Made by a program: the position numbers and the translations under genes. DNA of 64,000 bases, taken from the NCBI GenBank assembly GCA_024742495.1, contig JANSYJ010000001.1, positions 62,001 to 126,000 on the forward strand. The letters are read 5' to 3'. The notes below the pieces were generated by a model, which searched no databases, was not told the DNA's origin, and saw only the letters and a list, made by a program, of their open reading frames with translations. The stretch comes from Bacteroidota bacterium (GTDB taxonomy: Bacteria > Bacteroidota > Bacteroidia > Flavobacteriales > Schleiferiaceae). Numbering within the stretch: position 1 is the first letter of the stretch; each line of letters opens with the position of its first letter. Positions 17,748-19,606 of this stretch are shown piece by piece.

Positions 17748-18293
17748 ATGAATTGGTACTACTTCTTTAAAGCCTTGCACATTATAGGATTTGTAAGTTG
17801 GTTCGCAGGGATATTTTACATCGTTCGGCTATTTGTTTATCATCGTGAAGCATGGGATCGAGGCCTCGATGACAGCGAAGGGGAAATTCTTAGAAGGCAA
17901 TACCATATTATGCAGAGCCGCCTTTATGCCATAATCCAAAACCCGGCGATGTACCTCACCTTAATTGGCGGCATTGGCATGCTTAGTATAAATTCAACTT
18001 GGCTTCAAAGCCCCTGGATGCACCTCAAGCTAGGCTTGGTCCTTGGCCTCATGATTTATCATTGGTCTTGCAAACGACAAATTAAAGCGCTCGAAAAGTC
18101 ACCCACTGGAATTAACAGTTTTGGCTATCGGCTGTATAATGAGGTTCCTACCCTTGTGCTTATCGCGATAGTTATGTTAGTGGTATGGAAAAACCTTGAT
18201 GGTTTATGGATTGGGCTTATCAGCTTAGTAATACTAGGCAGTGTTTTCTTTGCGGCGGCCCGTTTATACCGTCGTAAAAGAGAAAAAAATTAA
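17748..18293 (+). CDS. hemJ: protoporphyrinogen IX oxidase HemJ (CopD-like)
   Basis: 181 residues from ATG 17748; the TTG at 17730 lies upstream of the promoter box and is rejected. The N-terminus FKALHIIGFVSWFAGIFY followed by RLFVYH is the HemJ signature, with the conserved His11 and the Arg and His of RLFVYH. There are four helices plus a C-terminal one, with a basic tail. HemJ oxidises protoporphyrinogen IX to protoporphyrin IX, the step directly after HemN. Its position next to hemN with a shared upstream region fits a joint haem supply for cbb3 oxidase. Confidence 0.92.
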   Translation: MNWYYFFKALHIIGFVSWFAGIFYIVRLFVYHREAWDRGLDDSEGEILRRQYHIMQSRLYAIIQNPAMYLTLIGGIGMLSINSTWLQSPWMHLKLGLVLGLMIYHWSCKRQIKALEKSPTGINSFGYRLYNEVPTLVLIAIVMLVVWKNLDGLWIGLISLVILGSVFFAAARLYRRKREKN

Positions 18294-18389
18294 AATTTTT
18301 CCAAGTGATAGTCAGTATGTTAAGCAAAGATTAAGTGAATTTGTATGATTTATTGCAACAAAGGCTTGCAATTATTCATTCAAGTATTC

Positions 18390-18397
18390 TATATTTG
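18390..18397 (+). promoter_or_regulatory. -7 box of small RNA copy 1
   Basis: TATATTTG fits TAnnTTTG; a TTG lies at 18366-18368. Exactly 5 bases separate the box from the conserved unit. Confidence 0.6.
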
Positions 18398-18402
18398 ACC
18401 CA

Positions 18403-18463
18403 GCGAAGCAGATTAATCAGGTTAAGGTTTTACCCCGGCATCCATCAGGATTGTCGGGGTTTT
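18403..18463 (+). ncRNA. small RNA, array copy 1
   Basis: The unit starts GCGAAGCAGATTAATCAGG and ends in a terminator: CCCCGGCA (18433-18440) pairs with TGTCGGGG (18452-18459) with one G-U pair, enclosing an inner TCC-ATCA-GGA hairpin, followed by TTTT. The 5' part contains GGTTAA and TTTACC, which can form a second small helix. There is no ORF. Predicted length is about 60 nt if transcription starts at the conserved GCG. Rfam holds a flavobacterial RNA family of unknown function (Flavo-1); whether this belongs to it I cannot test. Confidence 0.75.
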
Positions 18464-18594
18464 CCATTTTTAGACCATAAGTGTAATGCTCTTGCGCCCT
18501 AATAATCAAGCCTTAGGGAAATGACTTTTTGAACTTGTAGTACAGCTCACTATATTTCCTTTAGGTTATGGTATTGTTAACAAAAAGAAATTAG

Positions 18595-18602
18595 TATATT
18601 TG
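18595..18602 (+). promoter_or_regulatory. -7 box of small RNA copy 2
   Basis: TATATTTG, identical to the box of copy 1, with TTG at 18574-18576 (18-base gap). Again 5 bases lie between the box and the conserved unit. Confidence 0.65.
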
Positions 18603-18607
18603 AGCCT

Positions 18608-18668
18608 GCGAAGCAGATTAATCAGGTTAAGGTTTTACCCCGACATCCATCAGGATTGTCGGGGTTTT
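18608..18668 (+). ncRNA. small RNA, array copy 2
   Basis: Same unit as copy 1. The terminator arm reads CCCCGACA (18638-18645) against TGTCGGGG (18657-18664), a perfect 8-bp stem where copies 1 and 3 have a G-U pair, followed by TTTTT. The change keeps the pairing, which supports selection on the RNA structure. The sequence after the terminator differs slightly from copies 1 and 3. Confidence 0.75.
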
Positions 18669-18785
18669 TCATTTCTAAGAGCTCTTTATTACTAAAACCG
18701 CTTGCCTCCATTTGCAAAAAATAATAATTTATAAAGTTTTTGTATTAAAATTTGCAATACCCCTTGGCACTTTAAAATGTTTTCT

Positions 18786-18793
18786 TACTTTAG
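18786..18793 (+). promoter_or_regulatory. weak -7 box of small RNA copy 3
   Basis: TACTTTAG, one mismatch to TAnnTTTG, at the same 5-base distance from the unit as in the other copies. TTG at 18764-18766 gives a 19-base gap. Confidence 0.45.
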
Positions 18794-18798
18794 CGTCA

Positions 18799-18859
18799 GC
18801 GAAGCAGATTAATCAGGTTAAGGTTTTACCCCGGCATCCATCAGGATTGTCGGGGTTTT
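18799..18859 (+). ncRNA. small RNA, array copy 3
   Basis: The unit matches copy 1 through the terminator (CCCCGGCA at 18829-18836, TGTCGGGG at 18848-18855, then TTTT) and a further 12 or so bases. It ends 6 bases before the stop codon of the minus-strand cyclase gene, so its hairpin may also end that transcript. Its promoter box is the weakest of the three. Confidence 0.7.
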
Positions 18860-18865
18860 CCATTT

Positions 18866-19606
18866 TTAGAGGCTTTTACACTTGAAGAGCAGGGGCCTAG
18901 AAGGCACGGCATCATTATGTATTGGAGCCGTTTGAAGGTTAATAAAGTAAAAGCCTTCCTCCAAACTGCTGGGGAAATTGGTGAACTCCGTAATAGTTGA
19001 TTCCCTGCGGGTATTATGCGGATACTGCCAAAAAGCACGATGTGCCGCTAAAGCACCTCCATCTTCTTCCTGATCTACCGAAGGCAAATTGGTTAAAAGA
19101 TGCTTTACTCCTAATTCGGCCAATCGCTCACAAAGTGCTGCCTCGATAAAAGGAGGGTTAGTATTGCTAAAATGTCCCGGAAAGGGAAGCCCAGCCGCTT
19201 CAATGCCGACAAATTCGGGAAAACCTTCGGCCGGCACTACCAGATCCTCTAATTTCAAAAGGCGATCTCCATTTTCACTACGAATAGCTAAGCGCTGGAA
19301 ATGAATCCAACCGTGACTCTCCTTTAAGTGATCATTTAGTTTTTGATGCCCTTTATCAATATGACCATAGCACTCGGTATGGGTACCATTACCATGAGGG
19401 TTGAGTTGCACTTCATAAAAATTTACACTGGAACCTGCTTCTACCGAACCCAACCAGTCGTCTATTCTTACCGGACTAATCGACACGGGTTGCACATACC
19501 AGGCTGAAGGCTCTCGGGCGGTATCACCGAAAGTGCTGCTACAGTCGATTGCATGAGACAGATCAATGCGATAAGGCTGCCCATTTCGCTCTACAGTAAT
19601 TTCCAT
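18866..19606 (-). CDS. cyclase-family metal-dependent hydrolase (kynurenine formamidase-like)
   Basis: 246 residues. The DLSHAID start strand and the metal-binding motif HGNGTHTECYGH (family pattern HxGTHxDxPxH) place it in the cyclase/KynB superfamily; here Glu and Tyr-Gly replace the usual Asp and Pro. Family members hydrolyse N-formylkynurenine or isatin, or remain unassigned. No tryptophan-degradation genes are near. It is 2 bases downstream of hemW and probably shares its transcript with hemW and the kinase. Confidence 0.85.
   Translation of the reverse strand: MEITVERNGQPYRIDLSHAIDCSSTFGDTAREPSAWYVQPVSISPVRIDDWLGSVEAGSSVNFYEVQLNPHGNGTHTECYGHIDKGHQKLNDHLKESHGWIHFQRLAIRSENGDRLLKLEDLVVPAEGFPEFVGIEAAGLPFPGHFSNTNPPFIEAALCERLAELGVKHLLTNLPSVDQEEDGGALAAHRAFWQYPHNTRRESTITEFTNFPSSLEEGFYFINLQTAPIHNDAVPSRPLLFKCKSL

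Follow-up and report, generated by a model that had tools for sequence, protein, structure and literature searches.

A triplet of putative small RNA genes downstream of hemJ, and its related loci, in the Schleiferiaceae

Three nearly identical short sequences stand side by side between two protein-coding genes in the Bacteroidota genome analysed here, and the question is how they act: as RNA on distant partners, as DNA, or only on their immediate neighbours. We followed this question from the array itself, which lies in a stretch of 64,000 nt (the window; G000:C22:62001-126000, G000 being the window's own genome), to the seven genomes of its genus and to more distant members of the family and order. 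To our knowledge, little is known about regulatory RNAs in Bacteroidota outside Bacteroides.

Anatomy of the array

The units occupy positions 18390-18472, 18595-18677 and 18786-18868. Over 83 nt, units 2 and 3 are 94% and 93% identical to unit 1, and beyond the unit the identity of paralogues falls to 0.45-0.51, about the same within a genome as between genomes. An earlier note, made from the letters of the window, had described such units set in unrelated DNA, and these values bear it out. A PF03653 gene, which we take to be hemJ, and a cyclase-family gene converge here (Table 1); the array fills the 572 nt between their 3' ends and is consequently the leader of neither.

Each unit has a promoter-like box (TATATTTG in copies 1 and 2, TACTTTAG in copy 3) that ends 5 bases before a GCG in all three copies, with a TTG 21, 18 and 19 bases upstream of boxes 1, 2 and 3. 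A TTG 18-21 nt ahead of the box is what is expected of a Bacteroidota housekeeping promoter. The RNA had been proposed to start at the GCG, exactly 5 bases after a TAnnTTTG-like box. The constant spacing holds, but the box of copy 3 is a variant that departs from TAnnTTTG, and four bases (GCGA or similar) are absent from this stretch in two related genera, so that transcription may begin a few bases before the GCG.

The terminator that the note had assigned to each unit is found in all of them: a hairpin ACCCCG...CGGGGT is followed by T's, and folding z-scores against shuffled sequences are -3.55, -4.23 and -3.55 for units 1-3. The single difference noticed in the stem, GGCA versus GACA, exchanges a G-U for an A-U pair, and pairing is therefore kept as claimed. 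In the predicted fold the 5' part is mostly single-stranded and is followed by the intrinsic terminator, and weak alternative 5' pairings exist. The core within the 5' part is built of short repeats (AGATTAA, AGGTTAA, GGTTT). At the level of sequence, each unit thus carries what characterizes a base-pairing small RNA (sRNA) gene: a promoter of its own, an intrinsic terminator and a location outside coding genes. We consider it probable that the three units are independently transcribed sRNAs of ~60-65 nt, the seed of which pairs with target mRNAs, and that they are siblings of two loci, B and D, described below.

Table 1. Array features and neighbouring genes, in window positions; promoters, sRNA ends and seeds are predictions.
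Feature	Positions	Strand	Support or remark
hemJ-like gene (UPF0093/CopD), upstream neighbour	17748..18293	+	Pfam PF03653, E 5.9e-41
Copy 1 promoter: TTG 18366-18368, 21 nt, TATATTTG 18390-18397	18366..18397	+	TTG at 21 nt in 7/7 genus genomes
sRNA copy 1	18403..18463	+	5' end approximate
Copy 1 invariant 23-nt core GCAGATTAATCAGGTTAAGGTTT, proposed seed	18408..18430	+	identical in 21/21 units, 7 genomes
Copy 1 terminator hairpin, then T's	18432..18460	+	folding, covariation
Copy 2 promoter: TTG 18574-18576, 18 nt, TATATTTG 18595-18602	18574..18602	+	TTG at 18 or 21 nt in 5/7 genomes
sRNA copy 2	18608..18669	+	
Copy 2 invariant core	18613..18635	+	21/21 identity
Copy 2 terminator hairpin, then T's	18637..18665	+	folding
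Copy 3 promoter: TTG 18764-18766, 19 nt, TACTTTAG 18786-18793	18764..18793	+	TTG or TTTC at 18-19 nt in 7/7
sRNA copy 3	18799..18859	+	
Copy 3 invariant core	18804..18826	+	21/21 identity
Copy 3 terminator hairpin, then T's	18828..18856	+	folding
Cyclase-family gene, convergent downstream neighbour	18866..19606	-	PF04199

Conservation, covariation and concerted evolution

A search with the unit matched 10 of 99 genomes, the window's own included: all seven of the genus and three others of the family. Among these three, the matches in G013 and G015 are real copies, and that in G030 is a terminator-like stretch without the core. Reading these loci yielded 21 array units in the genus; G015 adds three and G013 one, and G002 also has a diverged orphan. 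The triplet occupies the same locus in all seven genus genomes; G015, of another genus, has a triplet and G013, of a third genus, a single copy, both 3' of hemJ, which directly precedes the array or single unit in nine genomes of three genera. As the array keeps one place throughout the genus, a transposable element, a possibility that the earlier note had raised, is unlikely. Between 17800 and 19400 the only inverted repeats, looked for as signs of a transposon, are the terminator arms, and elsewhere there is one orphan copy. This orphan, in G002 (L021, G002:C278, 3760-3823), stands beside short AGCGAAGCGGTCT-type repeats.

Conservation is very uneven along the unit. Mean orthologue identity over the seven genomes declines from 0.98-1.0 in leader and core through 0.74-0.80 in the hairpin and 0.63-0.71 in the promoter to 0.50-0.60 in the flanks on either side; the seed is thus conserved far above the remainder of the unit, and the concern that the spacers might be as conserved as the units is dispelled. 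The core GCAGATTAATCAGGTTAAGGTTT, unchanged across the genus, reads GCAGATTAATTAGGTTTAGGTTT in G015 and GCAGATTAAATAGGTTAAGGTT in G013. The order of promoter box, fixed core and terminator is preserved in 24 of 25 aligned units, the exception being copy 2 of G004, which has lost the box.

The covariation sought in an alignment is present in the terminator stem. Among the 25 aligned units (23 distinct rows, the orphan left out), 87.1% of terminator cells are paired, against at most 55.6% for slid pairings, and 22 cells are changed on both sides of the stem where shuffles give 6.6 +/- 2.2, a count that not one of 500 attains. Two of the five measures are weaker: double-change pairs (7 versus 4.4, a value reached in 23 of 500 shuffles) and further pair types (16 versus 13.6, reached in 42 of 500). 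Together, the invariant core, the drifting spacers, the covarying terminator and the triplet common to the whole genus give good support to the proposal that this is a multi-copy sRNA selected as RNA.

Copies 1 and 3 combine a shared RNA part with promoters that are specific to their positions. Copy 1 has TATATTTG with TTG at 21 nt in every genus genome, and copy 3 has TACTTTAG (TATATTAG in G006), preceded by either TTG or TTTC at a distance of 18-19 nt in every one. The promoter of copy 2 is less regular, with TTG in five of the seven. The terminator stems of copies 1 and 3 group by genome, that is, the RNA part evolves in concert: hairpin identity between the two copies is 0.975 within the same genome, compared with 0.80 across genomes, and a value as high arises in only 2 of all 5040 re-pairings. 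Copy 2 joins this homogenization weakly (0.795 versus 0.744; 230 of 5040 re-pairings). Gene conversion, or repeated local duplication, within the RNA part is the simplest account and would keep the RNA parts of copies 1 and 3 alike while their promoters stay distinct. That copy number sets the dose, as had been suggested, is possible; the position-bound promoter types seen across species argue as much for separate control, and the copies may differ in control and not in dose alone. Because the RNA part is homogenized and the promoters are distinct, the triplet makes the choice between dose and separate control of sibling sRNAs directly testable.

Among 395 genomes of the order, the core pattern was found in 13, every one of them a member of the window's family. 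The reversed pattern also matched 11 genomes (counted by eye), mostly of other families, so that single core matches need context. A scan of a contig collection gave 18 stretches, of which 12 are members (five read directly, the remainder recognized partly by unit spacing), from records labelled Flavobacteriales, Bacteroidetes, Owenweeksia or Cryomorphaceae; the other six (L092, L093, L097, L107, L108, L109) were judged by eye to be coding or chance-like. Ten loci with weak covariance-model hits in other genera (L041-L050) were also read, and the core was found only in those of G019 and G033. An extra pattern match in G000 (C30) lies, by eye, in repeat-like DNA lacking a terminator.

Related loci outside the window

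Following the hits of G019, G033, G022 and G024 led to two further kinds of locus, both outside the window and, in G000, 200 kb and more from the array. The first, locus B (G000:C22:283141; L198, L243), is at the 3' end of an RND efflux operon that in G000 consists, in this order, of genes for a TetR regulator (PF00440), an outer membrane efflux protein (PF02321), an HlyD-type fusion protein (PF16576) and the AcrB-type RND protein (PF00873), followed by a dxs-like gene (PF13292). Element B, (AGG)TTAAGGTTTGGTTAATTGGTT with a terminator-like hairpin, comes after the RND stop codon, which in some genomes is itself part of the motif. It follows 13 of the 30 RND genes read (G000, G001, G002, G004, G005, G009, G015, G019, G022, G027, G033, G035 and G043) and was not found after those of G006, G013, G024 or 13 more distant genomes. 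With G003, where it has one mismatch, and G041, where ~130 nt separate it from the end of a more distant RND gene, element B is present in 15 genomes. G019 has a second B-like copy elsewhere (L278), and in G024 a member that has a promoter-like box of its own lies ~340 nt beyond the RND gene. Element B shares with the array core 12 letters, AGGTTAAGGTTT, in nine of the 13 genomes, 10 in G015 and nine, TTAAGGTTT, in G000, G002 and G004.

Two further features of this operon were observed. A palindrome, GGAAACTTTT...AAAAGTTTCC, conserved across genera, covers the promoter region upstream of the TetR gene (L243-L259) and is likely to be the TetR operator. The RND gene of G003 (L246) contains an in-frame TAG within an otherwise conserved operon.

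Locus D (G000:C22:313106, L283) is a stand-alone sRNA-like gene that shares the seed sequence and, in G000 and G005, follows an M28 peptidase gene. It consists of a GTGAAC-N17/18-GTT(A/C)TT-like promoter, GGTTAAGGTTTGGTTAATTGTTTTGATTTAGTTTGAAAC in its genus form and a terminator, and carries the repeat form GGTTAAGGTTTGGTTAA; in most sequences the predicted fold has a free 5' part, a short hairpin and the terminator. We found it in 14 genomes, namely the seven of the genus and G009, G019, G022, G024 (two copies), G033, G035 and G043, with looser relatives in G008, G026 and G047. At other places, G019 and G033 each have a further stand-alone member with a perfect 5' hairpin (ATTGGCGTTCGCCAAT) before the seed (L145 4684-4754; L148). 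Matches to the D core outside the family have one or two mismatches and occur at about control level; we took them, uninspected, for chance.

TGAAC and GTT at such a spacing resemble the promoters of ECF sigma factors, and the promoter of locus D may be of this type. GTGAAC-N16-18-GTTATT occurs exactly once in each of the seven genus genomes and in six of them this is at locus D; in G000 the sole match is elsewhere, and the D box has one extra T. The control pattern, read backwards, gave 16 matches in the seven genomes. The TGAAC-like element is degenerate or missing at some D loci, for example in G022, G026 and G035.

Putative RNAs that share the seed also occur away from hemJ, one beside an RND efflux gene and another downstream of a gene for an M28 peptidase. 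A link of the array to haem or oxygen, suggested by the earlier note, is possible, its one basis being the position beside hemJ.

Targets, rival explanations and known systems

How might such RNAs act? The 5' half, mostly single-stranded, would present a fixed seed, GCAGAUUAAUCAGGUUAAGGUUU, which would pair with target mRNAs as in FopS and other sibling sRNAs, and the 3' half would serve as the intrinsic terminator. The array, the element at the RND 3' end and the stand-alone gene with its ECF-sigma-like promoter have in common AGGUUAAGGUUU, or part of it, and would form a wider family, in which a housekeeping, a 3'-UTR and a special-promoter route would answer to different signals and serve overlapping sets of targets. 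A fixed 5' seed with a terminator, recurring in part with unrelated 3' parts and promoters, has the look of base-pairing sibling sRNAs.

If the seed governs a common regulon, the shared target mRNAs would bear AACCUUAACC-like sites near their starts. A search for the exact 17-nt complement, with up to two mismatches allowed, hit the arrays and the stand-alone gene; beyond these it gave scattered sites, the majority of them uninspected, and no convincing target. The complement AAACCTTAAC occurs ~6.6 kb upstream of the RND 3' element in four of the seven genus genomes, which made the RND operon the best candidate. In an alignment of 17 operons, 73-74 nt separate this site from the first gene; it stands beside the operator-like palindrome, and the promoter-like box, ~16 nt from the start, is downstream of it. 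Consequently, the site is probably not part of the RND mRNA, and we rejected it. At the RND operon start of other genera there was no match to AAACCTTAAC with up to one mismatch. We also rejected a near-complement site common to G001 and G005, which is in a CHU_C surface-protein gene first taken for an RND gene.

Leaving aside the sRNA loci and the RND operon, we read the surroundings of every AAACCTTAAC site in G000, G003, G004 and G005, and of only the automatically returned ones in G001, G002 and G006. Of 73 distinct sites, 14 were flagged near an ATG, and 10 were kept after four had been dropped by hand as lying, by eye, within reading frames (one peptidase-like, three HtpG-like). Two of the 10 (L296, L307) form one orthologous pair, in which the site also codes for the end of the upstream protein. 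For the control CAATTCCAAA, two of 30 returned loci were flagged and one was kept. Sites near start codons are suggestive only as targets. Genome-wide, the complement has 143 matches and the reversed control 254, and there is hence no enrichment.

The main rival is protein titration, because GGUUAA-like repeats meet an RRM_1 protein in six of the seven genus genomes. The RNAs would then be ligands whose GGUUAA/AGGUUU repeats bind an RNA-binding protein, for example an RRM protein, which the copies titrate, much as CsrB-type RNAs titrate protein through multiple sites. The repeats of the core and of the stand-alone gene agree with this, as does the failure of the complement searches to find a conserved mRNA target. 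However, a core of 23 nt without a change across 21 units exceeds in both length and strictness what a loose protein motif requires, and genomes in which no match to the core pattern was found (e.g. G010, G061) have the RRM protein too. FopS, moreover, combines RRM binding with base-pairing (PMC11697453). We judge titration to be unlikely. Two further observations count against base-pairing itself: the repeats would suit a protein-binding RNA too, and in G000 locus B shares just nine letters with the array core, which slightly lowers our confidence.

The two other explanations survive less well. If the units did not act as RNA but were conserved DNA, for example binding sites of a regulator or intergenic repeats with an incidental terminator, this would agree with the partial conservation of the promoter-upstream parts (0.63-0.71); but the terminator stem covaries as RNA, the order of box, core and terminator is nearly constant and the upstream DNA is quite unlike that of the array at the other loci that have part of the core, which makes this reading very improbable. 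Least probable is a local role without action in trans, in which the units would, for example, end transcription or act as antisense buffers where hemJ and the cyclase gene converge: the array does fill that gap, and the end of copy 3 adjoins that of the cyclase gene, but a terminator has no need of the 5' core, where the conservation is found, the distant loci also have related sequence, and each copy retains its own promoter-like boxes.

The base-pairing reading was finally set against known families. Neither the window nor 15 related loci gave any match at the Rfam gathering score, FopS included, whose model is in the library searched. A scan up to E 10 over 18280-18900 returned six matches, among which FopS (RF04319) and Flavo-1, whose model is presumably in the library searched, are absent; the relation to Flavo-1 considered earlier is thereby not upheld. 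Below threshold, the units score best with anti-hemB (E 0.11, 18.2 of 49.5 bits), in an alignment that lies mostly over the terminator, and the stand-alone gene with L20_leader (E 0.011, 23.4 of 58.7 bits); both were taken as chance. The stand-alone gene scores 14.9 bits with the FopS model, the cut-off of which is 56. Titles and abstract openings of the papers found on Owenweeksia small RNAs and on Bacteroidetes ECF-sigma sRNAs contain no description of this family. The array and loci B and D thus appear as an undescribed set of related putative sRNAs, found only in this bacterial family.

Sibling sRNAs are known from other bacteria, among them Qrr, OmrA/B and LhrC1-5. Like the array, each of these comprises several homologous sRNAs with a common seed, and the LhrC1-5 of Listeria are reported to respond to haem; they belong to another phylum and are likened here by description. 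Flavo-1 is, like the array, a candidate RNA element of Flavobacteria, but in F. psychrophilum it is placed indistinctly in sense or antisense of transcripts (PMC9723704). GibS of Bacteroides thetaiotaomicron, also compared by description (PMC11697453), is a trans-acting Bacteroidota sRNA with a seed common to a multi-copy family, but differs as a single gene with two seeds.

FopS comes closest. As described in PMC11697453, these multi-copy paralogous sRNAs of Bacteroides have a single-stranded, conserved 5' seed and a Rho-independent terminator, are transcribed from canonical Bacteroides promoters, with one of 14 members derived from a 3' UTR, pair near the start codons of SusC-like mRNAs, bind the RRM protein RbpB and are conserved within the Bacteroidaceae. 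The array units resemble them in the predicted single-stranded 5' seed followed by an intrinsic terminator and in the number of paralogues per genome (three array copies and two related loci in G000); they differ in forming three tandem copies under concerted evolution and in matching no Rfam model at threshold. Our best reading is a new family of base-pairing sRNAs that works like FopS without being a member of it.

This family offers an exact seed and three kinds of related locus for the search for targets, and since promoters and terminators are recognizable as well, the targets should be findable with one set of deletions. More tentatively, we can imagine a seed-sharing regulon of Flavobacteriales served by three routes: a gene-converted triplet with three promoters, an sRNA cut and released from the 3' end of the RND efflux mRNA, and an sRNA gene driven by an ECF factor of envelope stress. 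Sigma-E-dependent sRNAs and 3'-UTR-derived sRNAs are both known in enterobacteria, and such a regulon, if it exists, would be their independently arisen counterpart in the Bacteroidota.
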